DNA of 64,000 nt, from assembly GCF_021233415.1 (NCBI RefSeq), contig NZ_CP089466.1:2480001-2544000 (forward strand), in the 5' to 3' direction. The stretch comes from Halobacterium litoreum (GTDB taxonomy: Archaea; Halobacteriota; Halobacteria; Halobacteriales; Halobacteriaceae). Shown piece after piece: positions 5,653-27,838 of this stretch. A model generated the notes under the pieces. The model did not search any database, had not been told where the DNA came from, and saw only the letters and a program-made list of their open reading frames with translations. The translations under genes and the position numbers were made by a program. Every line of letters begins with the position of its first letter. Within the stretch, counting starts at the first letter, position 1.

Positions 5653-5698
5653 CCCGGAAACGGACGTTCTAAGTGCCGGCGTTGCGAGATTCTCGCGT

Positions 5699-6685: not shown

Positions 6686-6796
6686 GCCGGCGGCTGTTCT
6701 CGCTCGCGTCCCGGCGTCCGCGTGGCGCAACCCCTTATGCCCCCCGCGCCGTAGCCCCGGCAATGACTGCGAGTGGGCGACGCGCCGGAGGCGACC

Positions 6797-7222
6797 ATGT
6801 CTAACTCGAACGCGAAGGGGAATCGACGCGAGCGCGAACTCGTGAACGAACTGGACGCGCGCGGATTCGCGGTGATGCGCGCGCCGGCGTCGGGCGCGGC
6901 GACGGACCGCGAACTCCCGGACGTGCTCGCGGGCGACGGCGACGTGTTCTACGCCGTCGAGGCGAAGTCCAGCGCCGGCGACCCCATCTACCTCACCGGC
7001 GAGGAGGTCGAAGCGCTCGTCTACTTCGCGCAGAACTTCGGCGCGAAACCCCGCATCGGCGTACGCTTCGACCGCGAGGACTGGTACTTCTTCCACCCCG
7101 CCGACCTCCACACGACGGACGCCGGGAGTTACCGCGTGAAAAAAGAGAAAGCGCTCGCCGACGGCACGGACATCGAGGAACTCACCGGCGAATCCGAGAA
7201 GACCGGTCTCGACGACTACTGA
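6797..7222 (+). CDS. hjc: Holliday junction resolvase Hjc
   Basis: 141 aa. Archaeal resolvase that cuts four-way DNA junctions in recombination. The nuclease-fold signature is clear: [13 protein letters not shown] with the N-terminal Glu, ELPDVLAG with the metal-binding Asp, then FYAVEAKSS (the ExK pair). The C-terminal tail (after about residue 115) is acidic and variable. ATG 6797 is preferred to the GTG at 6773 because it starts just before the conserved core. Confidence 0.95.
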
Positions 7223-15214: not shown

Positions 15215-15985
15215 ATGGGGAACCGCAAGGACCACTACTACAACAAGTCCAAGCAGGAGGGGTACCGCTCGCGGGCGGCGTACAAACTCAAGCAGATAGA
15301 CCGCGAGTTCGGCGTGCTGTTCGGCGGCGCGACGGTCGTCGACCTCGGCGCGGCGCCGGGCGGGTGGCTGCAGGTCGCCGCCGAGGAGGTCGGCGCGCGC
15401 GGGAAGGTCGTCGGCGTCGACTTCCAGAACATCAGCGACTTCGAGACGGAGGCGGGCGTGACGACGATTCGCGGCGACATGACCGAGGAGGAAACCCGAG
15501 AGCGCATCCGGGACGCCGCGAACGGCGTGGACGTGGTCGTCTCCGACATGGCGCCGAACATGACCGGCGAGTACAACCTCGACCACGCGCGCTCCGTCCA
15601 CCTCGCGCGACAGGCGCTGGACACGGCCCGCGAGGTGCTCGTGGACGGCGGGCACTTCGTCGTGAAGGTCTTCGACGGGCAGGACTTCGAGGGCTTCCTC
15701 GCGGACGTGGAAGACGAGTTCGCGTTCGCGCGGACGTACACGCCGGACGCCTCCCGCGATTCGTCTTCGGAGGTGTACGTCGTCGCGAAGAACCGCGTGG
15801 ACGCGCCGGTCGCCGAGGGCGACACCCTCGACGTGGAAATCACCGACGAGGGCGACGAGGGCGACGGCATCGCCAAAGTCGAGGGGTACACGCTGTTCGT
15901 CGGCGACGCGGACGCCGGCGAGACGGTCGAAGTTGAAGTGACTGACGTGAAGCCGAACTACGGCTTCGCGGAGCGCCGCGACTAG
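15215..15985 (+). CDS. rlmE: 23S rRNA 2'-O-uridine methyltransferase RlmE/FtsJ with TRAM domain
   Basis: 256 aa. Residues 1-195 are an FtsJ-type SAM methyltransferase: SRAAYKLKQID (catalytic Lys), VVDLGAAPGGW (SAM motif I), SDMAPNMTG (catalytic Asp), GGHFVVKVFDG (Lys), and SSEVYVVAK (Glu), giving the K-D-K-E tetrad. Residues about 205-250 are a TRAM RNA-binding domain (AKVEGYTLFVGDADAGETVEVEVTDV), typical of haloarchaeal members. Its stop interlocks with the convergent yhhQ-like stop in a CTAG. Confidence 0.95.
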   Translation: MGNRKDHYYNKSKQEGYRSRAAYKLKQIDREFGVLFGGATVVDLGAAPGGWLQVAAEEVGARGKVVGVDFQNISDFETEAGVTTIRGDMTEEETRERIRDAANGVDVVVSDMAPNMTGEYNLDHARSVHLARQALDTAREVLVDGGHFVVKVFDGQDFEGFLADVEDEFAFARTYTPDASRDSSSEVYVVAKNRVDAPVAEGDTLDVEITDEGDEGDGIAKVEGYTLFVGDADAGETVEVEVTDVKPNYGFAERRD

Positions 15986-16704
15986 TCGCTCGCGGGGTTC
16001 GGTGCGGCGAGCCCGCGGTCGCGGAACGCGCCCACGACGCCGTAGACGAACGGCGTGTCGAGGACGGCGATGAGGAGTTTGAGGACGTACTGGCCGACGA
16101 GCAGGCCGAGAATCTGGTCGAGGGAGTTCGCGGTGCCGACGCCGAAGAACGTGGGCGCCGCCCAGAACGCGACGGTGATGAAGATGACCGTGTCGATGGC
16201 CTGGCTGGTCGCCGTGGAGCCGACGTTGCGGAGCCAGAGGTAGGCGCCGTCGGTGCGCTCGCGGAGCGCGTGGAACGCGAGCACGTCCCAGTTCTGGCTG
16301 ACGACGTACGCGAGCAGGCTGCCGACCACGACGTTCGCCGACGACCACAGCACCCGCGAGAACTGCTCCTGGCCGACCGGGGAGAACGGCGCGACGGGCG
16401 CCTCGATGGTGGTGTAGACCAGCCCGAGCATCACGAGCGTCATCGCGAACCCGACGTTCACCATCACCTGCGCGGCCCGGCGGCCGTACAGTTCGGAGTA
16501 ACAGTCCGACGCGAAGAACGTCAGCGCGTACGCCAGCGCGGCGCCCGGCATCACGAGCGCGCTCCCGGTGTGCGGGAGACTCAGGCCGAAGGGCAACTGG
16601 AACATGAGAATCTTCGACGCCGTGAGTTGGGCAGTGACCAGAGAGGTGACGAACAGGCCGACGAGGACGACGCGGCCGGCCGCGAGGCGGTCCTCACTCG
16701 TCAT
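15982..16704 (-). CDS. Queuosine-precursor-type vitamin/7-deazapurine transporter (YhhQ/VUT)
   Basis: 240 aa, about six membrane helices. Family marks: LTASKILMFQLP, the FFASDCYSELYGRRAAQVMVNVGF loop, SQAIDTVIFITVAFW and GQYVLKLLIAVLDTPFVYG. In archaea such transporters probably import preQ0 or a related base for archaeosine synthesis; that is inference from the family. Its start overlaps the end of the upstream RHH gene by 11 bp, so both form one operon, now expressed across the left end of the mobile element. Confidence 0.92.
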   Translation of the reverse strand: MTSEDRLAAGRVVLVGLFVTSLVTAQLTASKILMFQLPFGLSLPHTGSALVMPGAALAYALTFFASDCYSELYGRRAAQVMVNVGFAMTLVMLGLVYTTIEAPVAPFSPVGQEQFSRVLWSSANVVVGSLLAYVVSQNWDVLAFHALRERTDGAYLWLRNVGSTATSQAIDTVIFITVAFWAAPTFFGVGTANSLDQILGLLVGQYVLKLLIAVLDTPFVYGVVGAFRDRGLAAPNPASD

Positions 16705-16870
16705 CGTCGAGGCGGCCCTGTCGGCCGTCGATGTCGTCGAGCACGTCGAGTGTTTTCCGGATGGACGCGCGGATGGCGTCGCTTCGGTTCACGAACTTCC
16801 CGTCGTCGCCGACGTGGTCGTCCAAGTCCTCGAGGAGTTCCTCGGGAACTTCGACGCTTATCTTGGGCAT
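16694..16870 (-). CDS. Ribbon-helix-helix (CopG-type) regulator, integration target of the element
   Basis: 58 aa, MPKISVEVPEELLEDLDDHV, ending GRLDDDE. The beta strand PKISVEVP, helix EELLEDLDDHV, turn and second helix SRSDAIRASIRKTL-like segment (NRSDAIRASIRKTL here) make a classic CopG/NikR-like RHH DNA-binding domain. Too short for most ORF filters. It overlaps the yhhQ-like start by 11 bp. Its first four codons lie in the 13-bp left attachment repeat, so the mobile element is integrated exactly across its start codon without changing the protein. Confidence 0.88.
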   Translation of the reverse strand: MPKISVEVPEELLEDLDDHVGDDGKFVNRSDAIRASIRKTLDVLDDIDGRQGRLDDDE

Positions 16871-16871
16871 A
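16859..16871. repeat. attL: left 13-bp attachment repeat
   Basis: TATCTTGGGCATA. On the minus strand it reads codons 1-4 of the RHH gene (ATGCCCAAGATA) plus one upstream base. Identical to the right copy at 27716-27728. Confidence 0.85.
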
Positions 16872-16910
16872 ACTCACTCACCTTCTTGAGACTCTATTAT
16901 CCTTATCCGG
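16872..16910 (-). promoter_or_regulatory. Surrogate promoter for the RHH-yhhQ operon, supplied by the element
   Basis: Reading leftwards, the element end offers GGATAATAGA (16892-16901), centred 27 nt before the RHH start codon, the same spacing as the lost native TATA box. A GGTGAG stretch at about -12 may act as a Shine-Dalgarno site. Weaker than the native TTTATATT box; activity is inferred from position. Confidence 0.5.
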
Positions 16911-16937
16911 TGGACTGTATCACACTCTCGCAGTCGA

Positions 16938-16977
16938 AGTGCTCGCATAGTATTCTCTTAAGAATATTCAGAGCACT
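16938..16977. terminator. Nested inverted repeat near the left end
   Basis: AGTGCTC (16938-16944) pairs with GAGCACT (16971-16977) and encloses TATTCT-CTTA-AGAATA (16951-16966). The 40-nt structure lies between the leftward tbp gene and the RHH operon, so it could end tbp transcription or be a recombinase arm site. The rest of 16871-17098 has no gene that I can support. Confidence 0.45.
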
Positions 16978-17098
16978 CAACTTAAAAGACACCGTTCGTC
17001 GGCTGTACATCACAACAGTAGATTCAATTCAAGACCCCATGAATTATTTCCATCCACTACCATTCAAAAAGAGAGTATCTAATCATTTTAGAAGCGTG

Positions 17099-17635
17099 TC
17101 AGAAGGTTTCGATCTCAGCCTGGAGAGACTCAAACGCCATCTCTGCATCTTTCTTACTGCGACCGCCGGTGATGACCACTTTCCCGCTCGCAAAGATGAG
17201 AAGGACACAGTTGGTGTATTCAGGTCGGTAGACCAGACCGGGGAACTGCTCGGGTTCGTACTCTGTATCCTCGAACCCAAGTCGGACAACCATCGCATTG
17301 AGGTCAATGTCTTGGTCAAGGTTCCCGACACAGACGACGTTGCGGATGGCGAAGTTGGGATCGTTGATGTCTTCGATGAGACTGAGGTCTACCAAGATAG
17401 ACAGTAGATGGTCCCGCGCCTCCTCGATATCTTCTATTGACTCGCCACCTCGAATCGCGTAGGTCCCTGTTCGGTAGACGAGAATTAACGAGTTGCCTGT
17501 CCGCATCTGTATAGTCGGCGGCGCAGGTCGGTGGCTATCATCGTATTCAGCCAGAGGAATGTCTGCAGCGAGTTCCTGTAGGTCAATTTCGATGCCCAAA
17601 TCGCCAGATCCCACGACGTTAACGATCTCGACCAT
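17099..17635 (-). CDS. TATA-box-binding protein paralog, first repeat degenerate
   Basis: 178 aa, the usual archaeal TBP length, with both direct repeats (about 3-88 and 95-178). The second repeat is canonical: EYEPEQFPGLVY (125-136) and LIFASGKVVITGG (146-158). In the first repeat the start IVNVVGSGDLG is kept, but the segment matching EQFPGLVY is replaced by DDSHRPAPPTI (32-42), and the strand matching LIFASGK is LVYRTGT. The phenylalanines that wedge into TATA DNA are therefore missing from one half. Encoded in the mobile element, divergent from the LAGLIDADG-like gene with one shared TATA box. Probably an element-specific initiation factor or an antagonist of host TBP. Confidence 0.88.
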   Translation of the reverse strand: MVEIVNVVGSGDLGIEIDLQELAADIPLAEYDDSHRPAPPTIQMRTGNSLILVYRTGTYAIRGGESIEDIEEARDHLLSILVDLSLIEDINDPNFAIRNVVCVGNLDQDIDLNAMVVRLGFEDTEYEPEQFPGLVYRPEYTNCVLLIFASGKVVITGGRSKKDAEMAFESLQAEIETF

Positions 17636-17651
17636 CCTAATGTTTCGTAGA

Positions 17652-17667
17652 GGAAGATATATCCGAC
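17652..17667. promoter_or_regulatory. Shared palindromic TATA box between tbp paralog and rightward operon
   Basis: GATATATC (17656-17663) is a perfect 8-bp palindrome, centred 24.5 nt before the tbp-paralog ATG (17635, leftward) and 28.5 nt before ATG 17688 (rightward). No other TATA-like box lies in the 52-bp gap, so one box likely serves both directions; this is why I start the rightward gene at 17688. Confidence 0.6.
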
Positions 17668-17687
17668 CACTCTTAATGCGATATGGT

Positions 17688-19088
17688 ATGGTCGGTCTTG
17701 GTCAAGTTGATCTTAAAACATTGTTGTCCGACGAGGAGATCGTCGGGCAGTTGCACGACGCCGGACGGACTCGTGATTACTCCCAAGAGTATACGGTAAC
17801 GGAGACCGCAAGTGGAAGGCTCCGAGTAAAGGGAGGGAACAAAGCAGTCGAATTCGACCGATACCACGAACTCGACCCCTCACTATTGATTTTCCTCGGG
17901 TTGTATGGAGGCGACGGTGACAAGACCGGATCCGTCGGATTCGGTCAGAAGAGCATCGACATCATGGAGCACGCCTACGACGAGATGGTCGAGTTCTTCG
18001 GTCACGAGTTCGACGTCACCTACCACATCACCGAAGATAGCCTGTTCTTCGAATCGGACGAGATGCAGGCCGAGCTGGAGGCGATGGACCACGACGGCGA
18101 ACCGCTGGAAAAGAAGAAACAGTATCTCATCGACGAGGTGTGGGAGATGCTGGAAGACCGAGGGATGCATGTTGACAGCGTCACTGCCACTGTTAGCGAC
18201 GTAAAAGGGGCTCGTAAGGCAGGACAGTCCAGCCGCGAGGATCTTATCGACCTCCGTGGCTCTAAGCCATTTCTTCCTATCATCCTCAAACTGATAGAAG
18301 GCGTCACAGCGACACTCTCAGATGACTTGCAATCGTATCCGAGCGATGATCCTTGGCTCGAATGGAACGACAATCCCTCCGATCTCTCCGCCTACGAAAT
18401 TAACATCCCTGACTACGTCGAGAATGCCGAGACATGTCAGTACTACACTGGCTCGGGCAAGCTCCGGCAGTACAAAATCGAGAAGAACTACGACGGCGTG
18501 ACGACGCTCCGGAAGCCCTATGGACAGACATTCGATGTCCACTCGGTAGCCGAGATCGGACCGCATTTCCTGTATATCGCGGGCCTCTATATGGCTGAAG
18601 GAGGGACACCGAAGGAGGTCTTAGTTTCCTTCTACGAGGAACCGTCTGATACTAGCCTCTCCATCGAATTCGTTTCGACAGAGAACGAGGAACTAGAAAT
18701 CCTGATTGATGGCTTCAATTCCGTGTGCGAAGACTTCGACGACTTTCTTAACTACTGGAAGGTGAAGATCGGGAGCCAGTATATGTACGAGACTGGGAAC
18801 GCCGCCGAGAAGATCGGTGCTCCAGTACTTCGCAGCGGGACGAAGGGACAGGGCAAGTCCCGCTCGTTCGAAGTCGCAGAGGGAATCAAGAAGTGGGGCA
18901 TCAAGACGTTCCCTGCTCTTGGGGAGATCGAGCAGTTCTTCAGTCACATCGAGCTGACTGGCGCAGGCATTCCACGGTGGCACATTGCCTTCTCCAGTTC
19001 GCCAGCAGTCCTCTTCTTCGCGCTAATGAACGATCTCGCATTCTATCCTGAGCGCGTCGAGCACTACGAGGTGAGCAAGGATGAGTAA
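17688..19088 (+). CDS. LAGLIDADG-like two-motif protein, putative nuclease
   Basis: 466 aa. Two segments match the LAGLIDADG helix: IFLGLYGGDG (residues 68-77) and LYIAGLYMAEG (295-305), each followed by beta-strand patterns as in homing endonucleases; the second is better (SIEFVSTENEELEILIDGF after it). Acidic Asp/Glu occupy the catalytic position in both (GDG, AEG). Not embedded in an intron or intein. Cleavage has to be tested; DNA binding only is possible. ATG 17676 is an alternative start. First gene of a rightward operon, overlapping the next gene by 8 bp. Confidence 0.65.
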   Translation: MVGLGQVDLKTLLSDEEIVGQLHDAGRTRDYSQEYTVTETASGRLRVKGGNKAVEFDRYHELDPSLLIFLGLYGGDGDKTGSVGFGQKSIDIMEHAYDEMVEFFGHEFDVTYHITEDSLFFESDEMQAELEAMDHDGEPLEKKKQYLIDEVWEMLEDRGMHVDSVTATVSDVKGARKAGQSSREDLIDLRGSKPFLPIILKLIEGVTATLSDDLQSYPSDDPWLEWNDNPSDLSAYEINIPDYVENAETCQYYTGSGKLRQYKIEKNYDGVTTLRKPYGQTFDVHSVAEIGPHFLYIAGLYMAEGGTPKEVLVSFYEEPSDTSLSIEFVSTENEELEILIDGFNSVCEDFDDFLNYWKVKIGSQYMYETGNAAEKIGAPVLRSGTKGQGKSRSFEVAEGIKKWGIKTFPALGEIEQFFSHIELTGAGIPRWHIAFSSSPAVLFFALMNDLAFYPERVEHYEVSKDE

Positions 19089-20046
19089 TACATTCGCTCA
19101 GCACTTTGGTTTCGACGCAGAGTTCGATCAGTCCGCCTTTGTCGACACGTTTGGCCGAGACAGCCTCGACACCGTAGTCGAGTTCTACCAGGGCGTCGTT
19201 GACAGACGGTCGACCGGATGGATCCCACTGCCGGATATGTTCTTCACCATCGGGGCATGCGAGATGCTCGGAGTTGACCACAGCCCCCTCTCAGACCGAG
19301 TGCCGTCGTATCTGTCGGAATTGCAGGTCGGTGGCGGCTACTGCCCTGTGCCCGAAGAGAAGATGGAAGGATGGCGAGCGGACCGGGAGCCAGACATCTA
19401 TTCGACGTATTATGCGGTCAAAACTCTCGGTCTCCTCGGTCGTTCATCTGGAGTGGATGTCGACACCTTCGTCGCTTCCCAGCAGGACGACGGATACATC
19501 TATAACGAGGAGTGGTCGAACACCATTCCCGAGTACCGATTCGACTCAGAGCTCCGCCAGCAGGTTCTATTGGGGCTCCTCCTGACCGACAATGTCGACA
19601 CGGATCCAATCGTGGCCGAACTCGACGAGAACGAGTTCCTCACGCCCATCTACTACTCGTGGCGGATTCGGAAGCACCTCGATATCGATCCGGCACTCAC
19701 CGATGAAGAAGCCGAGCGACTTGGTGACCTACAGAAGGACGGTGGGTTTCGGGAGTACCGCCTCAGTGACAAGACCGACGAACATGCAGGGAGCGACCAC
19801 CGAACGTGGCGCGACCAGAACCCACCGCACCTTTTCAGCAGCTTCTATGCCTACCATATCGCCAGCGAGACCGACTCTCGATTCAGCTACGACACTGGTG
19901 AGTTCATCGACTTCATCGCTGGGACGGAAGACGAGGAAGGGTTCGGTGTTGACGTCAACGCACGTGAGTTCGAAGCCCCGTTCGGTCGGACGTACACCCC
20001 GCTGGAGCATATGATGGTTCTCCTCACGCCCTCACTCGTACAATAG
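19081..20046 (+). CDS. Prenyltransferase/terpene-cyclase-like alpha-alpha toroid protein
   Basis: 321 aa. Shows repeated toroid motifs: LQVGGGY (81-87), DIYSTYYAVKTLGLLG (105-120), QQDDGYIYNEEW (134-145), and LQKDGGFREY (217-226), the QxxDGG-type turns of protein prenyltransferase beta subunits and squalene cyclases. The DxDD cyclase motif and an obvious zinc triad are not seen, so a binding or scaffold role is as likely as catalysis. Its ATG overlaps the preceding gene by 8 bp, implying a joint function with the LAGLIDADG-like protein. Confidence 0.7.
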   Translation: MSNTFAQHFGFDAEFDQSAFVDTFGRDSLDTVVEFYQGVVDRRSTGWIPLPDMFFTIGACEMLGVDHSPLSDRVPSYLSELQVGGGYCPVPEEKMEGWRADREPDIYSTYYAVKTLGLLGRSSGVDVDTFVASQQDDGYIYNEEWSNTIPEYRFDSELRQQVLLGLLLTDNVDTDPIVAELDENEFLTPIYYSWRIRKHLDIDPALTDEEAERLGDLQKDGGFREYRLSDKTDEHAGSDHRTWRDQNPPHLFSSFYAYHIASETDSRFSYDTGEFIDFIAGTEDEEGFGVDVNAREFEAPFGRTYTPLEHMMVLLTPSLVQ

Positions 20047-20078
20047 GTATAAACGAAATATGGACAAATCTGGGTGTC

Positions 20079-20288
20079 ATGAGGGAGACCAAGAGGGAGA
20101 TTCTTCAGCGAATTGGCCAGGAATCTACGTGGGGATACAACTTGGCTGACGAGTTGGACCTCACGCCTCAAACGGTCTACTCCCATCTGGACGACCTGGA
20201 GGAAGCGGAATACATCGAGCAGTCTGGTGAGGAGTCAGGTCGGACTATATTTTCTCTGACGGAGAAAGGGAAGTCGGAGATCGAGTAG
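20079..20288 (+). CDS. Small winged-helix regulator
   Basis: 69 aa. MRETKREILQRIGQESTWGY, then NLADELDLTPQTVYSHLDDLEEAEYIEQ and a beta wing (GRTIFSLTEKGKSEIE): a complete PadR/MarR-like winged helix and nothing more. Its own TATAAA (20048-20053) lies 28 bp before the ATG, so it can be made as a leaderless mRNA independent of the upstream operon. Convergent with the methyltransferase pair, one base between stops. Likely regulates element genes. Confidence 0.82.
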   Translation: MRETKREILQRIGQESTWGYNLADELDLTPQTVYSHLDDLEEAEYIEQSGEESGRTIFSLTEKGKSEIE

Positions 20289-20289
20289 G

Positions 20290-21822
20290 CTACTTTTCCA
20301 GGAACAGGATCTTCTCTTCCTGGATTGCGTTCTTACTGTGGACTTCGCCGATTGCAGTTGAGTTGAGGCTCTTCTCGACCAGATTCGCCTTCTCGTATCC
20401 AACCATCTCGCCAATGTCGTAGAGGAAGTCATCAGTCGGGATCTCGACGACTTCCTTGTCGTCACCAGCTTTGGTGGTGTTTCGACCGACCACGAGTACG
20501 AAGTTCCCTCCTTCGGGAAGCATCTGGTGCCCTTGATCCAGGACGTCACGCATGTCCCGGAAGTACTTGTAGAGGAGCGCAGCCTTGTTCTTCCGACGGA
20601 ATCCGACGTCGGCGTCAACGTTGAGGTCATAGACGCGCTTGATGAGTTCCTTCACGTTGTCGGGAAGCCAGAGCGAATCATAGTTGTCGAGGAACTCTGC
20701 TTCCAGATCTTCTTTCTCCTGCGGGCGGATCTCACGGTTTCCGATGACCTGTCGTTCGAGGTCGCGTCGGTCCTTCTTCTCCAGCAGTCCCAGCGTGAAG
20801 AGCGAAAGACGATACGTATCGACGTAGGGGAGACCCGTTGCATACGGGGGCGAGCAAACCATATGGTCTATGTCAGGGAGTGAGGTCTCCTCCGCCATTG
20901 TGGTCGCGTCCGCCTGTTCGACGACGGTCTCCTCGTTGAGATCGAACTTTGTCTTAAAGTCCTGCGTATCCTCGACGCGCTTGACGTTCTTGTTGAACCG
21001 GTCTTCGAACATCTCGTAGACGTCGACATCCTCCGGAATCTCGTCAGCACGGAGTACCCGGATCTGATCCTCGTCCTGGTGGGAGACTGTCCGAAGCAGG
21101 TCACTCAGCGTGATGAACAGGAGCTGTCGAACCTGATCGTTCTGGACGTCAGAGATTTGGCTGTGGAGGCCACGGACCTGGTTGATGACGGGGTCCTCGA
21201 ACCACTTATCGAGATAGTCGGGTTCCGGAAGGGTGTACTCCTCGCTAGTGAGTGTTTTGCACGAGAAGGAAAACTCCCGCATCTCGCTGAGGTCTACGTC
21301 GAGCGTGCTGACCTTTGTTCTCGACAGGTAGACCGAGAACGGGTTGATGTCGATGCCGACTGTGTTCAGCGACTCCAGGCGACCCTGGTAGAGCGTCGTC
21401 CCGCTGCCACAGAACGGGTCCATCACCGTATCTCCTGCTTCAAGGTCGAGCAGACTGAAGATCGTAGAGACGAGTTGCGGATAGAACTTACCTGTATACT
21501 CGTGTAGTCCGTGTCCGAGATAGCGGGCCGATTTCCGTGTCCCCTCTGGAACTTCAGTCAGCTCGTATTGGTGCCCTCGCGGAGTGAGAGTTTCGCCCGA
21601 CTCTTGGTTTTTTACCGTCTGAAAGAACGGGAGTGTCTCCAGATTGTACTCGGGAACCTCTGCCTCGGTACTCAGACTGAGACCGTTCTCGACGAGGAAT
21701 GGGTTCTCGGAGATTTCGCCGTACTGCTCCAGAATCTCCTCGCACATGTCCTCCTCGTAGCTCCACATACTGTAGTCTGGATAGACGAGGAGGTAGTCAA
21801 GCATGGTCTGGTTCTCACTCAT
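20290..21822 (-). CDS. DNA methyltransferase (amino-MTase type), second of a pair
   Basis: 510 aa. SAM motif I DPFCGSGT (135-142) precedes the catalytic motif SPPY (324-327), as in N6-adenine/N4-cytosine DNA methyltransferases. HEYTGKFYP (107-115) is the conserved element before the SAM motif. Between motifs is a long target-recognition-like region (about 200-310). Its ATG overlaps the stop of the upstream methyltransferase (ATGA), so both are co-translated. No restriction endonuclease of a known family is adjacent. The base modified cannot be told. Confidence 0.85.
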   Translation of the reverse strand: MSENQTMLDYLLVYPDYSMWSYEEDMCEEILEQYGEISENPFLVENGLSLSTEAEVPEYNLETLPFFQTVKNQESGETLTPRGHQYELTEVPEGTRKSARYLGHGLHEYTGKFYPQLVSTIFSLLDLEAGDTVMDPFCGSGTTLYQGRLESLNTVGIDINPFSVYLSRTKVSTLDVDLSEMREFSFSCKTLTSEEYTLPEPDYLDKWFEDPVINQVRGLHSQISDVQNDQVRQLLFITLSDLLRTVSHQDEDQIRVLRADEIPEDVDVYEMFEDRFNKNVKRVEDTQDFKTKFDLNEETVVEQADATTMAEETSLPDIDHMVCSPPYATGLPYVDTYRLSLFTLGLLEKKDRRDLERQVIGNREIRPQEKEDLEAEFLDNYDSLWLPDNVKELIKRVYDLNVDADVGFRRKNKAALLYKYFRDMRDVLDQGHQMLPEGGNFVLVVGRNTTKAGDDKEVVEIPTDDFLYDIGEMVGYEKANLVEKSLNSTAIGEVHSKNAIQEEKILFLEK

Positions 21823-23189
21823 CGCTCGAACACCAGAATTGCTTCCTTCTTCGCCCGTGCGTTCTCAGGGTTGAACGTCTTCTTGGTGGAGTCGATGTTC
21901 CGGAAGAACTCCTTCTCGACCTCAAATGCGGTGTCTTCCGCGAGTTCCTTCATCAACTCGTTATTCCGGACGATTTCACCTTCCAGTTTCGAGTCGCCGA
22001 TGACCATACAGAGGCGACCACCCTCCTTTGTGTTCTTCTCCAGATTCCGAAGACACGCCGTCATGTTCTCGCGGAACGTTTCCATGTTCTCCTCCTTCGA
22101 TCGGTTCTGGTAGACGAGGTGCGCCCCTATCTCGTCATGTTTCATCTGACGGGGCTTCATGTCCAGCCAGAACATCCGATACTTGTGGTATAGGTGGTAG
22201 TCGTAGGCGTTAGGATACGGCGGTGACGTGATGATGAGATCGGCCTTCTCGTCGAGCGTAAAGTCCTCTCGGAGATCCTGAGAGAAGACGGTCGGAGTGT
22301 ACTTCTCGTCGCAGTCGTTGTAGAAGTCCTCCATACCCCGAACCATCCGGTTGAGTTTATTCTCGTATTTGCGGATGGTCTCGCCGGGCTCCATTTCGTT
22401 GTCGACGCGAGTGTACCGCGTGTTACTGTCCTGGTATGAGACGTTGACGATGATACTGGAGAACCCGGTTTTGAAGAAGTCCTGGAGACTGTCGTCCTCA
22501 ACCTCGTTGATGTATCCCTTGATTATGGACAGCTCGCGGATCGCATTGTCCGAGAACCATCCGTCCAGTTTTGGGATGTCAGGAACCTCATACTCTTCTT
22601 GGAAGTTATGGGCTCGTTTGACATCGTCGAGGTGGTCACGGACATTGTTACCCAAAGTTTCCGGCTCCAACGGGGTCGCCTTCGACCGTGTCATTAGAGT
22701 GGCAAGAGGGTTCAAATCAGTCCCGACTGCGTGACGATCTTTGCGAATCGCCTCGACAACTGCAGTTCCACAGCCGCAGAATGGATCCCATACGACATCC
22801 CCTTTCTCGGAGAAGTATTTCATTAGAGTCGCCGGGATCTGCGGGATGAATTTTGCAGGGTAAGGATGGTAGTCGTGTGTAAATTTATTTGTTTTTGCAT
22901 CTTCAAACCGCCAGTCGACGAAATCTAAGTGGTCCGATTCCATTCTATACTCTCTGTGTTGGCTACTCTCTTCCTCATGCGTGATATACCCAATGTTTCC
23001 TAAGCCACTATCTCCACTACTGCCGCTGCTCAAAAATTGAAATATATTTGATGGTTTTGTACAGTAGGGAGGGGATATCATGTTCTGTGAAAATCCTGGC
23101 TGATGTTTTTGCTTGATCTGATGTTTACTAGTATTCTCCGCGCCGTTATGCTCAGACGGTATTCCTTTTTGTTGTGGGTTCAAACTCAT
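21819..23189 (-). CDS. DNA methyltransferase (amino-MTase type), first of a pair
   Basis: 456 aa from ATG 23189. HPYPAKFIP (108-116), SAM motif DPFCGCGT (135-142) and SPPY (322-325) stand at nearly the same residues as in its partner, so the two are paralogues. This colinearity and a GGAGG Shine-Dalgarno 8 nt before ATG 23189 decide the start. The catch is a Ser/Gln/Asn-rich N-terminal 80 residues of low similarity to anything; ATG 22943 would remove it. Expressed behind a structured leader (23190-23268). Confidence 0.82.
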   Translation of the reverse strand: MSLNPQQKGIPSEHNGAENTSKHQIKQKHQPGFSQNMISPPYCTKPSNIFQFLSSGSSGDSGLGNIGYITHEEESSQHREYRMESDHLDFVDWRFEDAKTNKFTHDYHPYPAKFIPQIPATLMKYFSEKGDVVWDPFCGCGTAVVEAIRKDRHAVGTDLNPLATLMTRSKATPLEPETLGNNVRDHLDDVKRAHNFQEEYEVPDIPKLDGWFSDNAIRELSIIKGYINEVEDDSLQDFFKTGFSSIIVNVSYQDSNTRYTRVDNEMEPGETIRKYENKLNRMVRGMEDFYNDCDEKYTPTVFSQDLREDFTLDEKADLIITSPPYPNAYDYHLYHKYRMFWLDMKPRQMKHDEIGAHLVYQNRSKEENMETFRENMTACLRNLEKNTKEGGRLCMVIGDSKLEGEIVRNNELMKELAEDTAFEVEKEFFRNIDSTKKTFNPENARAKKEAILVFER

Positions 23190-23193
23190 TTGT

Positions 23194-23266
23194 GCTTCCT
23201 CCACGGAAGCGTGGTCGCGTGCTCCTACCACGCGGCCTCTGACTTTCGAGGCTGTACCATGCTTCC
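23194..23266 (-). promoter_or_regulatory. Candidate switchable leader RNA (Y-shaped) before the methyltransferase pair
   Basis: As minus-strand RNA: GGAAGCATGGT (23266-23256) pairs with ACCACGCTTCC (23215-23205; ten Watson-Crick pairs and one G-U) and closes a three-way junction with arms GCCTC/GAGGC (8-nt loop) and CGCGTG/CACGCG (7-nt loop). The same GCTTCC can instead pair with GGAAGC (23199-23194), which contains half of the GGAGG ribosome site. The two folds exclude each other, as in a translational riboswitch. Confidence 0.6.
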
Positions 23267-23287
23267 CCACTACTATTAGTATATAGA

Positions 23288-23303
23288 ACGCTATAAATCT
23301 TGA
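23288..23303 (-). promoter_or_regulatory. TATA box of the methyltransferase leader
   Basis: ATTTATAG on the minus strand (23298-23291). A start 27 nt downstream would be near 23268, two bases before the closing stem of the Y-shaped leader, giving a leader of about 79 nt. Confidence 0.55.
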
Positions 23304-24145
23304 AATCAATCTGTCATGTGCCGTTATACGCCCATTGGATGTGTGACTTATTTGGGTTTAATACTAGACAGTATCTCGATCTCAGATGCCGGGTTAGGAT
23401 GACGCCGTTCACGAGGATACTCAGACGACTAAGAAACTCTTGGAACTCGGGGGCGTCCAAGCGTGTTCGTGTTACGAACAGTCTATTCTATGAGGAGTAC
23501 AATCGGACATCGACGCGACTCGATAGGGCACTCTGGCTAATCGGAAAAATTGGGTCAGCGGAGGATAGACTACTTGAGCGAGAAGGTAGATCGGTACTGA
23601 CAACGTGTGGTTGGTTTTGCTCAACTCCGTTCGACTATCCCAAAAATGGCCCTTATTTGGAGAGGCATCCGGACAGGCGTTTATGTTTTTTATTACCCAA
23701 ATCTGCAGTTTTCTTGAATTGATGAGGTCGTCTCAATCGTGGCCGAACGGTGTTTTGCAGTTCTAGAACTGGCAGAGAACCCCTACCCTATGAGGGGCCG
23801 GCTCGTTACTGTTACTCGGTAGTCCCTCCGCTGCTATCCGCTGTAGAGTGATAGTAGCTCAGTCTATGAGTGTGTTGGCTCGATTCCAATGGGTAGCCAT
23901 ATGTCATAGACCGTGTTTTCGGGCGAGACCAACGTAGTTCAGTCTACGACTGAGCTAAGATCTCTATTGAGTCCCCGCTGAGCCAGTCCGTAACCAGACC
24001 TATTAGATATTCTAAATTAGTAAGATCCTCAACCACTCGCGTATCGACAGTCGCCGTGACCAGAACAGAAGTCAATAACCACTATACCAGAGAAAAGATG
24101 CGTATGTGGCTGAAGATCCTACTAAGTTAAGCTATCTAATACATC
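23304..24145. other. Gene-poor 840-bp stretch with structured segments
   Basis: No gene I can support. An open frame at 23300-23722 (+) lacks acidic halophile composition, promoter and any recognisable motif. A 34-codon open stretch at 23717-23820 (IDEVVSIVAERCF start) looks more protein-like but has no start codon and could be a gene remnant. A structured segment is listed separately at 23856-23956. The rest is AT-rich and unassigned; it may hold control or origin sites of the element. Confidence 0.4.
23856..23956. ncRNA. Candidate structured RNA or cis element
   Basis: AGCTCA (23856-23861) pairs with TGAGCT (23951-23956) and encloses an 8-bp stem GTCTATGA/TCATAGAC (23862-23869 with 23904-23911), itself holding TGGCT/AGCCA (23876-23880 with 23895-23899). 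The right part can also form its own hairpin AGTTCAG-CTGAGCT (23936-23956). GTAGCTCAGTCTATGAG and GTAGTTCAGTCTACGAC (23854, 23934) are 17-bp near-repeats. Strand and expression unknown. D-arm-like wording is present, but no full tRNA. Confidence 0.35.
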
Positions 24146-25348
24146 CTACCCGAAAGCCGGGAAGTTGAGGAAGTCCGGCCACACAAATTCATCTTTGAGG
24201 GCGAACTGCTCCGTGTTCCTGCCGTTGTCCTTCTTCACGACTTGGCCTAAACCAAGAGTCTCCAGTAGATCCATTCGCTTGCGCAACGTCTTGCGCGTTG
24301 AATCTGTCCCGCGGTGAGTCCTAAGATCCTTGGACGTGATCGGATTCGGTGTTTCAGGATCAACCACAGCACGAACGATTCCTCGGCGTTCTTTATGCAT
24401 CGTACTCAACGCCAGACGACTAGACACTTGGACGTCGTCTAGCTGGAGTTCTTCGCGGCCACACAACAGAGCGTGCCCGCGGGCGATATTTCGCAGACTG
24501 CTCATAATTCGATGTTCTCCTTCTCGTGTTCCGGTTTCAGTAGGTGCTCGGCAGTACGCAACAAGATGGGCAAGATAGACGATCCCATCACGAACCTCAC
24601 CGTGGGCAGCCGAATCCCACGTCACACTACCGTAGCCGCCATAGTGTTCCCAGACGTTACGTAGGAACGAGATTACCTCCGTTTGGCATTCAGCAACTTG
24701 CTCTCCATATTCACGCCCCTCAAACACATCGACAGCGACCTCGTGGGGACTCGCTTTACGTGGCAGGTAATGGAAGACCAGTCGATTTCCGACGTGGCCC
24801 ATAGCACTCCAAGCCCGGCCGTCAAGCGGCGTCGTCGCTCCGATGAGGGCGAATCGATAGTCGCCGTCGTAGCCACGCGAGCCGTGTGATCCAGTATCTC
24901 GGTGATAGCCTGAACCGTCCATCACTCGGGCGATTGTCGCCATCGTCGACCGAATCTGCTCGAAACTACCGCTAAACCAGCCTGCCATATCCGGATTGAC
25001 GAGCGACTTGCGACGGATCTTCGGTAACAGATCGTACTCTGCTAGCTCCTCCTCATTCTTGGACGGTTCATGACTTACGAACGCGGCGGGGGTGAGGTCG
25101 TCGCTCCAGTAGACTAGTTCCTCGTCGTTGAACTCGGCCCCTTTGAGGAAGTCGAGAGCCGTAGTCTTCCCTGCGCCGCTAGGACCGACAACAGCGATCC
25201 CCTCACAGCTATCCGGTCCGTCTAGCAGCAACGTCGTCTTCGTTGAGAGAACAGCCTCCGTGACGAGCGCGATACGCTTATCGAACACGTCCTCGACATC
25301 CTGAAGGACGGCGTCAAGGTTAGAAGCTGTACTATCGAGGTTAGTCAT
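24146..25348 (-). CDS. P-loop ATPase with C-terminal winged helix
   Basis: 400 aa. Walker A GPSGAGKT at residues 55-62; FALIGATTP (around 165-175) resembles a sensor-1 strand. No classic DExx Walker B is obvious. The C-terminal 90 residues (ITSKDLRTHRGTDSTRKTLRKRMDLLETLGL...) look like a winged helix, the layout of AAA proteins that load or license DNA machinery in archaeal plasmids and viruses. Its start overlaps the upstream 107-aa gene by 8 bp. Likely the replication, partition or control ATPase of the element; the exact family is not recognised. Confidence 0.7.
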   Translation of the reverse strand: MTNLDSTASNLDAVLQDVEDVFDKRIALVTEAVLSTKTTLLLDGPDSCEGIAVVGPSGAGKTTALDFLKGAEFNDEELVYWSDDLTPAAFVSHEPSKNEEELAEYDLLPKIRRKSLVNPDMAGWFSGSFEQIRSTMATIARVMDGSGYHRDTGSHGSRGYDGDYRFALIGATTPLDGRAWSAMGHVGNRLVFHYLPRKASPHEVAVDVFEGREYGEQVAECQTEVISFLRNVWEHYGGYGSVTWDSAAHGEVRDGIVYLAHLVAYCRAPTETGTREGEHRIMSSLRNIARGHALLCGREELQLDDVQVSSRLALSTMHKERRGIVRAVVDPETPNPITSKDLRTHRGTDSTRKTLRKRMDLLETLGLGQVVKKDNGRNTEQFALKDEFVWPDFLNFPAFG

Positions 25349-25664
25349 CAGAGACCTCCGGCTTCGAGAAGACTCTGTTCCAATGGTTGCTCTTACGTGG
25401 CTCAGATTTGACTGAGACTAATCTACGCGGAATCGTTGCGTGAGCGGCTACTATGTATCCGTCAATAACGCGAACCCAGTCTACCTCACACAGAGGATGA
25501 GCAATAATCCATCTAATAGCGGGAGGGACTTCGGTGGAGATCGTCATTCGGTCTGTTTCCTTGGAGCCGTACAGACGGACCTCCTTCTCGCAGGGGAACA
25601 TCTCGGGGTCTTCCCGAACTTCTCTGTTCTGGAGCAGCTCGGGATCCGGGTCATTGATCCTCAT
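25341..25664 (-). CDS. Hypothetical protein, middle gene of ATPase operon
   Basis: 107 aa. Not recognised. N-terminal third is acidic; the middle (VPPAIRWIIAHPLCEVDWVRVIDGYIVAAHATIP) is hydrophobic/beta-like. Strong Shine-Dalgarno GGAGGGG (25678-25672) sits 7 nt before the ATG, and the ATG overlaps the stop of the 31-aa leader gene (ATGA). Its end overlaps the ATPase start by 8 bp. The three are surely co-translated; it may bind the ATPase. Confidence 0.7.
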   Translation of the reverse strand: MRINDPDPELLQNREVREDPEMFPCEKEVRLYGSKETDRMTISTEVPPAIRWIIAHPLCEVDWVRVIDGYIVAAHATIPRRLVSVKSEPRKSNHWNRVFSKPEVSDD

Positions 25665-25756
25665 GATCGGACCCCTCCATATTTGCTGCTATAGTCAATA
25701 CCTGATACTGTCGACTTCCATGACCGCTTAGGACGGTCAATCTGTGTTCGGCTCAT
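25661..25756 (-). CDS. Hidden 31-aa leader gene of the ATPase operon
   Basis: Encodes MSRTQIDRPKRSWKSTVSGI and 11 more residues ending GGVRS; basic, unlike most halophile proteins. The TGA overlaps the ATG of the 107-aa gene as ATGA, the same coupling used elsewhere in this element, which is the main argument that it is translated. The start context CACAAATGAG is identical over 10 bp to that of the first methyltransferase. A TGACCG/CGGTCA hairpin lies inside it (25721-25739). It may be a translated leader peptide. Confidence 0.5.
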   Translation of the reverse strand: MSRTQIDRPKRSWKSTVSGIDYSSKYGGVRS

Positions 25757-25798
25757 TTGTGGTCCTACGGGATTCAACTGAGGTTTCCCTGAGACCCC

Positions 25799-25855
25799 AC
25801 GACCGCCTACCTACGGTATCGGCATCACCGTCCTCGACACTCCGAGGGCGGTCGT
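25799..25855 (-). promoter_or_regulatory. Second Y-shaped leader RNA candidate, before the ATPase operon
   Basis: ACGACCGC (25799-25806) and GCGGTCGT (25848-25855) form an 8-bp closing stem around two hairpins, ACGGT/ACCGT (25813-25831) and CCTCG/CGAGG (25832-25847). On the minus strand a TATA-like GTAATACA (25889-25882) would start transcription near 25859, just before the stem. GACCG and CGGTC recur in the downstream 31-aa gene, so alternative pairings are possible here too. Confidence 0.45.
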
Positions 25856-25958
25856 TCTAAAATCCAAGAGTGACATTTGATGTATTACAGCGTCAGTTCG
25901 CCACCTACATTAACATTTCGACACTCTAAGCAGTGTAAAAATCTAAAAATCGATTAAT

Positions 25959-26918
25959 TTATACCGATTTCGTGTCGCCGAACTTCTGGTAAGCATCTTT
26001 GACATCATCGTCGAGGATTCTAAGATAGCGTTCAGTCGTATCCAAGTTCTTGTGGCCCAAGTGCTTCTGGAGCGTCCGAATGTCGACACCGGACTTCAGA
26101 GCGTGGATAGCGTGTCCGTGCCGTAAGCTATGTGTCGTGATTCGCCATTTCGGCTTCCCGCCGGCGTCTGTGTACATCTGCTCTTGACAACCGGCGTTCT
26201 TGGCTGCCTGAACCACTAGCTTCCCGACCGTCTGTCTCGAAATCTGCTCTGATCGTTGACTCGGAAAGAGGTACGGGGACGTGGTCGATGGCCCATACGC
26301 ATCCCGATACCCGCTATCGATCCACTGGTCGAGAAGGAAATCAAGAGATGGCTGGTAGTAGACTGTCCGCCAGTCGTCCGTCTTACTGGAATAGACCCGA
26401 ATGCTCCGCTCCTCTCGGTCGATATTCTCTAGCTCCATACCAGCGAGTTCGTGACCTCTGACTCCGGTCTGCCACAGAAGCCGGATGATCAGCCGGTTCC
26501 GAAGTTGTGGCGACGGAGCGTGTTCGACCATCGCCTCCTTCTCGTCCTCGGTGACGTAGACGACATCTGCCTCGTTGTGCTTCTTCGTCCCGTTCGTGAG
26601 CGACCGTAGGTTACTCTGGTCGATTTCGTCGGCCGGGTTCTCCTCGATGACGTCCTTCCGGTCGAGGAATTTGTAGAACAGGCGAACACCGGACAGAGAG
26701 CTGTCGATTGAATTGGGTGCGTACCCCTTGTTCGCCAAGTGAGCGAGGAAGTCCTCAATTTCGAGCGGTCCAATCTCAGTCGGTTCGTATCCCGTCTCCT
26801 CCAGCCACTCGTTGAATCGGCGGAGCGCGTTCTTCCGTGCTTCGTGCGTGCCCGCTGACTTCATCCCCTTGACCCGCTTGAGAAAGCGGTTCATATGGTC
26901 GTTCTCGAACTCGGGCAT
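25959..26918 (-). CDS. Tyrosine recombinase / integrase of the element
   Basis: 319 aa. N-terminal SAM-like core-binding domain (residues 5-100), then the catalytic domain with Arg in TGVRGHELAGM, HSLRHGHAIH (His-x-x-Arg), GHKNLDTTERYLRI with the His and the Tyr nucleophile. XerC/D-type length. It should catalyse recombination between the 13-bp repeats at the element ends. Its ATG follows the upstream RHH-wHTH gene by 3 bp, so it is the last gene of a three-gene leftward operon. Confidence 0.95.
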   Translation of the reverse strand: MPEFENDHMNRFLKRVKGMKSAGTHEARKNALRRFNEWLEETGYEPTEIGPLEIEDFLAHLANKGYAPNSIDSSLSGVRLFYKFLDRKDVIEENPADEIDQSNLRSLTNGTKKHNEADVVYVTEDEKEAMVEHAPSPQLRNRLIIRLLWQTGVRGHELAGMELENIDREERSIRVYSSKTDDWRTVYYQPSLDFLLDQWIDSGYRDAYGPSTTSPYLFPSQRSEQISRQTVGKLVVQAAKNAGCQEQMYTDAGGKPKWRITTHSLRHGHAIHALKSGVDIRTLQKHLGHKNLDTTERYLRILDDDVKDAYQKFGDTKSV

Positions 26919-26921
26919 CGA

Positions 26922-27470
26922 TCACACCTCCTTGTAGTAGCGGCCGTCGTCGGTCTCTCTGACCGCATACGTCGTCTCCTGTAGGTGGTCGAGAGCGGCC
27001 TGTATCTGGTACCGAGGCACGTCGAGTCGCTCCGACAGCCACTCAATCGATCCCTGTTCCGGAGCAGGGACGCCGTCTGCCGTTTCGGAAATAACTGGCT
27101 CCGTGTGGGCCTCCTTCTTCGAGGGAAGCATCTCGAAGATATCGTCCGCAAGGGCCTCCGTTTCGGGTCCAACCGCCTCGCCGGTGACGGCTTCCCGAAC
27201 GTCCGTGAGTTGCCCTTTGATCCCGTCGAGGTGCTGTGCGAGTTGCTCCTGTTGGGTGTTCAGTTCCGTTAGCTGTTCGTGGATCTCCTGCGAGACCTCT
27301 CCACTGGAGCCGCTGGCTCGGTCGTGGAGGTATCGATTGACGGCTACGCGCACGAGTTGCGAGAGTGAATCGGCGTCGGGGTCGTCCTGAGCAGCCGACT
27401 CCCACTCATCTTTGGTGTCTGGATACACAGCAAGGGTGACGATCTCGTTTCGACGATCCTCGCCGTTCAT
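26922..27470 (-). CDS. RHH-like/coiled-coil/winged-helix protein upstream of integrase
   Basis: 182 aa from ATG 27470 (MNGEDRRNEIVTLAVYPDTK). N-terminal part (to about residue 55) reads like an RHH-type DNA-binding unit with SLSQLVRVAVNRYL; residues about 60-95 form a coiled coil (EIHEQLTELNTQQEQLAQHL); the C-terminal 55 residues (IEWLSERLDVPRYQIQAALDHLQET) look like a winged helix. Resembles haloarchaeal DUF5805-type proteins found next to XerC/D-like integrases. Probably controls or directs excision. Its ATG overlaps the stop of the small Cys gene. Confidence 0.75.
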   Translation of the reverse strand: MNGEDRRNEIVTLAVYPDTKDEWESAAQDDPDADSLSQLVRVAVNRYLHDRASGSSGEVSQEIHEQLTELNTQQEQLAQHLDGIKGQLTDVREAVTGEAVGPETEALADDIFEMLPSKKEAHTEPVISETADGVPAPEQGSIEWLSERLDVPRYQIQAALDHLQETTYAVRETDDGRYYKEV

Positions 27471-27658
27471 TCTGACCGCCCCACGTTGTAGTCCTGTTCG
27501 GGATCGAAGCACTCGAAGCACGGGAGATCGTCGCCATCTGGACCGGCACACCATTCCTTATCATTCTGACAAGTATCGTCCTCCTCGTCAATAGTCGGTT
27601 TAGCGAACTGGTCGATAGTCGTGACAGCGCGGCCGCTGTAAGGCGTTTCTGAAGCCAT
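27467..27658 (-). CDS. Small four-Cys protein, first gene of integrase operon
   Basis: 63 aa, acidic, with four cysteines (CQND...EWCAG...LPCFEC) that could hold one zinc. No family recognised. An AATTAATATCC box about 29 bp before the ATG gives a leaderless promoter for the whole small-Cys, RHH-wHTH, integrase operon. ATGA overlap with the next gene supports that it is real. Confidence 0.65.
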   Translation of the reverse strand: MASETPYSGRAVTTIDQFAKPTIDEEDDTCQNDKEWCAGPDGDDLPCFECFDPEQDYNVGRSE

Positions 27659-27715
27659 CTCTACATAGCATACTAAGACTGATAGGATATTAATTGTATT
27701 GGATAGTTGACACTA

Positions 27716-27728
27716 TATCTTGGGCATA
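27716..27728. repeat. attR: right 13-bp attachment repeat
   Basis: TATCTTGGGCATA, identical to attL. With the native bases to its right it forms GGGCATATGCCC (27722-27733), a perfect 12-bp palindrome, flanked by TCT/AGA; the pre-integration site was therefore a near-perfect 20-bp inverted repeat, fitting a tyrosine recombinase core. Confidence 0.85.
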
Positions 27729-27760
27729 TGCCCTAGAGAATATCTGGAGAATATAAACTC
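27725..27760 (-). promoter_or_regulatory. Orphaned native promoter of the RHH-yhhQ operon
   Basis: On the minus strand, TTTATATT (27757-27750) lies 27 nt before an ATG at 27727 that continues CCC AAG ATA and then meets TAG in the element. It is the original leaderless promoter and first four codons of the RHH gene, cut off by integration. Confidence 0.75.
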
Positions 27761-27838
27761 GCGCATTCGCCGACGGCAAGGCGGCTACGCGAAGCGGAGC
27801 CGTCGAAAACCATAGCCGGCGGGACCGCGCCGGACCGA

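Follow-up and report, generated by a model that had tools for sequence, protein, structure and literature searches.

The closest described relatives of the protein considered here are the TbpC-type TBPs of haloarchaea, for which the accessible text of Becker et al. 2014 (PMC4230888) counts 21 TbpC-like homologs in 18 species, mostly without the N-terminal Phe pair and with the C-terminal pair kept. The same text terms these TBPs "nonfunctional" or "very specialized" and leaves their role open. In the accessible parts of the work on Halobacterium salinarum, deletion of tbpC gave no apparent phenotype and the tbpC transcript was undetected in strain PHH1 (PMC2121645, PMC4230888), while a 1.7-fold increase at low salt is given for NRC-1 (PMC1971269, accessible part). 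A further H. salinarum plasmid TBP, TbpD, regulates hundreds of chromosomal genes with TfbA, according to the accessible part of PMC2121645. TBPs also occur in bacterial TOTE/TALON conflict systems, as described in the accessible text of PMC12458937. The TbpC type is thus already known. Its linkage to defence is not in print within the literature searched, which took in a minority of the subscription journals: no link of TbpC or haloarchaeal TBPs to defence systems was found there, including in the accessible text of PMC3710099 and PMC4390858, and the accessible text of PMC12988326 does not mention TBP.

The window (the whole stretch of DNA that was analysed, 64 kb) carries a TBP gene with the following features:

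17099-17635, minus strand: TbpC-type TBP paralog of 178 aa (Pfam TBP; second TBP of the genome; AF2 model and fold match)
17390-17632, minus strand: TBP repeat 1, 51.5 bits against the TBP profile, no Phe at either wedge position
17510-17542, minus strand: DDSHRPAPPTI replacing the first-stirrup EQFPGL segment (from alignment)
17108-17353, minus strand: TBP repeat 2, with EYEPEQFPGLVY and LIFASGK, 89.6 bits against the TBP profile

The frame encodes an intact, full-length TBP that matches Pfam TBP (PF00352) with E 6.8e-41 and 138 bits against a cut-off of 22.9, which each of the two repeats also exceeds on its own. The AF2 model (pLDDT 93.6, pTM 0.83) matches TBPs in Foldseek with TMq 0.80-0.88 over 171-184 columns (44 rows, E <= 0.001). 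The confident model and the TBP match over both repeats suggest that the saddle is whole, though one half has a changed DNA-facing side. For the comparison of the two halves, the wedge Phe positions are presumed to be those of eukaryotic TBPs. Repeat 2 is canonical in form, with both wedge residues present (F131 and F148, invariant across 29 aligned TBPs) as well as EYEPEQFPGLVY and LIFASGK. Repeat 1 carries DDSHRPAPPTI where canonical TBPs carry D-P-E-Q-F-P-G-L, and T-Y-A-I-R-G where they carry K-I-V-C-T-G; its first wedge Phe is lost and its second is Tyr54, giving the pattern R/P-Y-F-F, whereas 24 of 24 canonical or four-Phe TBPs read FFFF. With two of the four intercalating Phe kept, one replaced by Tyr and one lost, the window protein falls outside the four-Phe TBPs. 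In the alignment it retains both repeat Asn, Arg55 and the entire repeat-2 stirrup EYEPEQFPGL, which we take to be the TFB-docking part of TBP. These comparisons bear out the initial annotation, which had described a second repeat keeping EQFPGLVY and LIFASGK and a first repeat without the FPGL segment and the wedge phenylalanines. Its view of the gene as a paralog, not the organism's sole TBP, likewise stands: the genome (2.71 Mb, two contigs, 99% complete) holds two TBPs, the window gene and a canonical four-Phe one (G000:C1:2464841-2465365) about 15 kb ahead of the window. Neither refuting check proposed with that annotation has gone against it: the genome has this other TBP, and the model, compared at the level of overall fold, shows a full TBP fold.

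By the definition in the accessible text of PMC4230888, loss of the N-terminal Phe pair with retention of the C-terminal pair makes the window protein a TbpC-type TBP. The repeat-1 change is the hallmark of a known haloarchaeal type and not fresh decay, a point that the initial annotation had overlooked. Among 77 paralogs including the window protein, the wedge patterns are YYFF (58), -YFF (9), HYFF (3), RYFF (2), YFFF (2) and AFFY, VFFY and FYFF (one each); RYFF is confined to the window TBP and its sister L040, and compared with the usual YYFF form, more of repeat 1 is missing from the window subtype. In a tree built by a quick method, with long branches among the second TBPs, a divergent TBP clade (SH-aLRT 98) holds both the window protein and the H. 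salinarum NRC-1 pNRC100 TBP (L144), which its YYFF pattern, the plasmid that carries it and the tbpC number 5142 mark as probably tbpC. Within the tree, the window TBP pairs with a Halorientalis litorea plasmid TBP (support 99, 58-62% identity). Its likeness to H. salinarum tbpC and the other TbpC-type TBPs lies in the Phe-pair pattern and in the setting of dispensable paralogs beside an essential TbpE-type TBP. A search of viral contigs for relatives of the window TBP returned 13 pattern stretches and no relatives. Two or more TBP frames are present in 13 of the 76 best-scoring paralog loci described below, and two loci hold mirror-image pairs (L070, 2791-3369 and 6301-6858; L091, 12791-13375 and 9280-9909), in which an FFSP protein, with the first-repeat Phe pair kept and Ser and Pro in the second, accompanies a YYFF protein.

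Around the TBP gene, the window shows the following further features:

16880-27800, no strand: low-GC inserted island between what we take to be a VUT-type transporter gene and a TatC-type gene (GC about 0.50-0.58 against 0.66-0.70; flank spacing)
17656-17663, no strand: GATATATC, putative shared TATA box of divergent promoters, single copy in the window
17688-19088, plus strand: predicted LAGLIDADG-fold protein of 466 aa (ATG 17688) or 470 aa (ATG 17676) (motifs GLYGGDG with D76 and GLYMAEG with E304; model)
19081-20046, plus strand: partner protein of 321 aa, conserved beside the LAGLIDADG gene (weak alpha-alpha toroid match; Pfam Prenyltrans 0.0021, below cut-off)
20290-21822, minus strand: DNA methyltransferase 1, 510 aa (N6_N4_Mtase 6.9e-10; PADLOC MTase_II 4e-57)
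21819-22943, minus strand: DNA methyltransferase 2, 374 aa (ATG 22943; open frame on to 23309) (N6_N4_Mtase 3e-18; PADLOC MTase_II 1.8e-64)
24146-25348, minus strand: P-loop ATPase of the island (weak AAA/ABC matches)
25959-26918, minus strand: tyrosine recombinase of the island, XerA-like integrase (Phage_integrase 9.7e-32)

The two flanking genes lie 11.1 kb apart in the window genome, whereas in the 11 same-genus genomes that have both on one contig the spacing is 213-354 bp in six, about 1.8 kb in two and 7.7-10.6 kb in three. This variation points to an insertion hotspot (window 16704-27839), and the TBP may rightly be called mobile, as it had been, in that it sits on an inserted island. 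A search for direct repeats at the island ends gave nothing convincing. At 16694-16870 the island is bordered by a small gene of ribbon-helix-helix type that resembles CdrS (28.9 bits, below the cut-off of 100).

The gene divergent from the TBP encodes a 466 aa protein for which Pfam gives no match up to E 10; together with its 321 aa partner, it has neither a Pfam match above cut-off nor a PADLOC family. The motifs GLYxGDG and GLYxAEG are invariant, with D76 and E304 in four of four aligned sequences. In a structure comparison (VIA), residues 60-454 of the model (pLDDT 73, pTM 0.81) match I-DmoI, PI-PfuI, TliVMA and WhiA at Z of about 7-10, and rows 1-25 are all of LAGLIDADG fold (Z 9.9-6.7), with the first unrelated row at 5.2; a Foldseek search with the same model is weak (best E 0.02). 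On the strength of the model, the protein is predicted to have a pseudo-symmetric LAGLIDADG endonuclease fold with two acidic motifs. It shares the fold (residues 60-454) and the two acidic positions with I-DmoI, PI-PfuI, other LAGLIDADG homing endonucleases and WhiA; however, unlike the homing endonucleases, the predicted protein is encoded in a conserved methyltransferase cassette and not within an intron or intein.

The four-gene cassette (17688-22943) is also present in Alicyclobacillus sendaiensis (L154 4849-10191), in a Lachnospiraceae genome (L155 8001-13241) and, with the two methyltransferases fused, in a Latescibacteria MAG (L156 8001-13306). Identities to the window proteins are 31-35% for the LAGLIDADG-fold protein, 17-19% for the partner, 29-34% for methyltransferase 1 and 33% for methyltransferase 2. 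Priestia aryabhattai (L007) has the first two cassette genes beside McrBC. Relatives of the 466 aa protein amount to its own copy among 391 haloarchaeal genomes, one on plasmids (Priestia) and three in bacterial genome contigs. In the Latescibacteria MAG, the gene upstream of the cassette (5298-7202) is partly repeated downstream (15680-16804), beside a transposase-like ORF, as if the cassette had arrived with a duplication. The Halorientalis gene that follows its TBP (L006 12535-13449) was considered as a relative of the 321 aa protein and showed no clear relationship. The profiles predict two N6/N4 methyltransferases, the methyltransferase component of restriction-modification. The cassette resembles Type II restriction-modification with paired methyltransferases in having two DNA methyltransferases and a candidate nuclease and in being mobile, and differs from it in the LAGLIDADG fold of the candidate nuclease and in the conserved partner. 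We read it as a candidate, possibly undescribed, restriction-modification system whose putative nuclease has a LAGLIDADG fold. Inspected by eye, the ORFs listed for the three bacterial cassette loci (L154-L156) revealed no TBP, so that the TBP looks like an archaeal addition.

Defence neighbours, which the initial annotation had also overlooked, were counted at 76 paralog loci (L040-L115) from 69 genomes, i.e., the best-scoring places of the TBP search in rank order, with the window's own gene, a second copy (G367:C3:334379) and G347:C49 set aside and L115 as the next in rank; four FFFF TBPs of lower rank (L116-L119) were hand-picked as extra controls, and genes at these relative loci were called with a simple caller of our own. 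The labels covered methyltransferases, restriction helicases, BREX, McrBC and comparable genes. A labelled defence gene lies within 6 kb in 73 of the 76 loci, within 3 kb in 67 and within 500 bp in 53, counts made with a label set that is tuned to TBP neighbourhoods, since it was drawn from product names at plasmid loci themselves chosen by TBP similarity, several of them identical to loci among the 76. With near-copies (80% identity) removed, 47 of 52 paralog loci have such a gene at 3 kb. The exceptions at 6 kb are L056, L066 and L109. For four-Phe TBPs, the count is 0/24 at every distance. The plasmid background, taken from four 50 kb stretches in which the labels overlook at least one annotated N-6 methylase, is 72/720 positions at 6 kb (10%), 5.8% at 3 kb and 17/720 at 500 bp (2.4%). 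Tallies by Pfam and PADLOC, which are free of the label-set bias and cover 137 of 151 immediate neighbours, agree with the label-based counts. In two batches of 66 and 71 immediate neighbours, Pfam gives N6_Mtase in 12/66 and 16/71, Eco57I in 10 and 14 and ResIII in 12 and 11, against 0/40 control neighbours for all three; the PADLOC matches among control neighbours are mad2 (2/40) and Cas12f/TnpB-type and other Cas-type models (1/40).

In the 67 loci with a labelled gene within 3 kb, the nearest such gene precedes the TBP on the same strand in 45 and follows it on that strand in three; it is divergent in 16 and convergent in three. At the same-strand junctions, the TBP starts between -10 and +30 bp from the end of the defence gene in 35 of 38 cases, mostly with a 1- or 4-base overlap, and divergent starts (n = 12) are spaced 99-335 bp apart. 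The annotated plasmid loci show which systems are involved. BREX-5 pglX/pglZ adjoin the TBP at L009, L147 and L148, and at L008 the TBP lies in a BREX-type locus, between an Eco57I methylase gene and a PglZ gene. Methyltransferase and helicase operons include the TBP at L140, L141, L144 (pNRC100) and L146, and at L142 it stands beside a DNA methyltransferase and a helicase. Elsewhere, the neighbours are a type I-like pair (L143), an N-6 methylase (L149), a methyltransferase, a helicase and McrBC (L153), and DUF1156/DUF499 plus McrBC (L006). A further region, L145, carried no annotation. The three four-Phe plasmid TBPs (L150-L152) neighbour acetate-CoA ligase, isocitrate dehydrogenase/aconitase, and uncharacterised or PadR-type genes. 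On MPF_T-type haloarchaeal plasmids, an xseA/xseB pair accompanied by several uncharacterised genes is found repeatedly in the vicinity of TBPs (L006 17982-23821; L143 11030-16534; L152 9294-16489). That close relatives of the window TBP stand beside DNA-methylating defence genes in many related species suggests a role for a protein type once deemed possibly useless. Compared with the account of the TbpC type in PMC4230888, whose accessible text has no neighbourhood or defence link, the linkage, the lineage-by-system pattern and the constraint described below are added here.

We put at roughly 50% the probability that the TbpC-type alternative TBP serves the defence locus that it accompanies, either as a dedicated initiation factor for transcription or as its autoregulator. 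Being optional, tied to system type and a member of a DNA-binding initiation-factor family, it is most simply read as a regulator. In the mechanism that we envisage, repeat 2, with both wedge Phe and an unchanged EYEPEQFPGL stirrup, would dock host TFB and grip one end of the promoter, while a re-tuned repeat 1 would alter the choice of TATA-like boxes, and the protein would thus favour, or occupy, the promoters of its own locus. The TBP might thereby govern when, or how strongly, a system is expressed that harms the cell if mis-expressed. For the window TBP, the target would be the divergent LAGLIDADG-protein/partner/two-methyltransferase cassette; throughout, we infer DNA and TFB binding, promoter choice and the direction of regulation. 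C proteins and BrxR are helix-turn-helix or WYL-type bacterial regulators. The proposed role would resemble theirs, i.e., that of a small locus-encoded DNA-binding protein timing or limiting expression of its locus. However, the window protein has a TBP fold and not a helix-turn-helix, and would act as a basal factor with TFB, so that the comparison is one of "works like" only, with no common ancestry claimed.

The initial annotation had placed the TBP gene divergent from the next operon with a palindromic TATA box between them. The arrangement and the sequence are as described: the frames at 17688-19088(+) and 19081-20046(+) run away from the TBP gene, and GATATATC lies at 17656-17663, some 24 bp ahead of the TBP start codon and some 29 bp ahead of the ATG at 17688. 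It is the sole copy in the 64 kb, and at least one copy occurs in 7 of 100 shuffled windows; it was not found within 120 bp upstream of the sister TBP L040. The box is thus well placed as a candidate shared TATA box, but as a single, unreplicated box it is unproven. Upstream regions of the TBP family compared by eye yielded no common promoter motif; GGAAG..TTATAA-like boxes were seen upstream of the TBP in some lineages. The absence of a family-wide motif, the null phenotype of the tbpC deletion and the undetected PHH1 transcript all count against the regulator reading, as do the position of the TBP, mostly downstream in an operon and not that of a stand-alone regulator, the three paralog loci that have no labelled defence gene within 6 kb and the two with shortened frames; the low-salt rise of tbpC in NRC-1 speaks the other way. 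A more specific version of this reading seems to us somewhat short of an even chance: each TbpC-type TBP would be matched to one restriction-modification, BREX or related system, switching it via its own promoter code, and the window member would serve an inter-domain LAGLIDADG-nuclease restriction system to which the archaeal host added the TBP.

A general alternative TBP for element or stress genes, which redirects host transcription broadly and hitch-hikes on defence islands, is unlikely. TbpD with TfbA offers a precedent for such breadth (PMC2121645, accessible part), and defence genes are on mobile DNA anyway; however, the four-Phe plasmid TBPs lack labelled defence neighbours (3/3), the operon junctions of the paralogs are tight, and the TBP lineage tracks system type. 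Mapped on the TBP tree, system type changes 14 times over 42 labelled rows, against a mean of 25 and a minimum of 21 in 200 shuffles. Grouping of TBP lineages by host family, the other pattern considered, gave no signal, with 23 changes against a shuffle mean of 22.6 and 150 of 200 shuffles as low. The lineage thus follows system type and not host family, suggesting that TBP and system move jointly between hosts.

It is quite unlikely that the protein is a host-shut-off effector, i.e., a one-sided TBP that, as an abortive-infection arm, would tie up TFB or obstruct promoters during infection. The retained stirrup, to which we have assigned TFB docking, and the alteration of one DNA grip would suit such a role. 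However, the gene is tied to genes for methyltransferases and helicases, and the methyltransferases among them would be expected to be on in healthy cells; the same system types also exist without a TBP. For the "host TBP antagonist" of the initial annotation, we found no evidence; in 35 loci, the gene immediately preceding the TBP codes for a methyltransferase, a helicase or the like.

We hold it very unlikely that the TBP is a DNA-binding or DNA-bending subunit of the restriction/modification machine itself, as might be thought from the operon that it shares with methyltransferase and helicase and from the TBPs of TOTE/TALON systems. Its presence is optional. The BREX-5 protein PglZ is present in 61 of 391 genomes, and a TBP is nearby in 3 of 40 sampled BREX-5 loci and absent in 37, the sample being 40 of 64 places with already-known TBP carriers left out (with the six known, 9/46). 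At helicase places of at least 77% identity, a TBP lies directly downstream in 19 of 32, counted by hand among the TBPs listed by the TBP search. The bacterial relatives of the window cassette also lack a recognised TBP (by eye). That 37 of 40 BREX-5 loci do without it fits a regulator better than a machine part. The window locus has in common with TOTE/TALON a TBP gene within a defence-type operon. However, the TPR-CSD fusion, NERD-type nuclease and ARMADA-like YprA homolog that the accessible text of PMC12458937 gives for TALON are absent from the window island: Pfam found TPR-CSD, NERD nuclease or YprA-type helicase in none of the 10 island or flank proteins scanned.

That the gene is a decaying passenger, as the accessible text of Becker et al. 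2014 leaves open, is highly improbable: the repeat-1 wedge pair is lost and tbpC is dispensable in H. salinarum (PMC2121645, accessible part), but dN/dS in the family is about 0.12 in both repeats, frames are full-length in 74 of 76 paralog loci (shortened in L099 and L110), and the same kinds of neighbour recur. Over 78 close family pairs, the median dN/dS is 0.117 (0.13 for repeat 1 and 0.11 for repeat 2), a value for the family that does not extend to the window protein itself, whose dS to L040 is saturated. This purifying selection on both repeats disfavours decay, and the first half, which had been called "degenerated", is under about the same constraint as the second in those pairs. Of the earlier description, the paralog, the inserted island and the change to one half have held; a role in transcribing the linked genes, or autoregulation, is plausible; the degeneration and the antagonist are not supported.

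What is new here is the genomic context of TbpC-type TBPs, i.e., their linkage to defence genes. The window cassette is in its own right a candidate restriction system with an unusual predicted nuclease fold, common to archaea and bacteria. TbpC-type TBPs, left in 2014 as either "nonfunctional" or "very specialized", gain a testable job from the defence linkage. If the regulator reading is true, basal-factor switching would join the known control modes of defence operons, and the spread of TBP copies over haloarchaeal plasmids would be explained in part.
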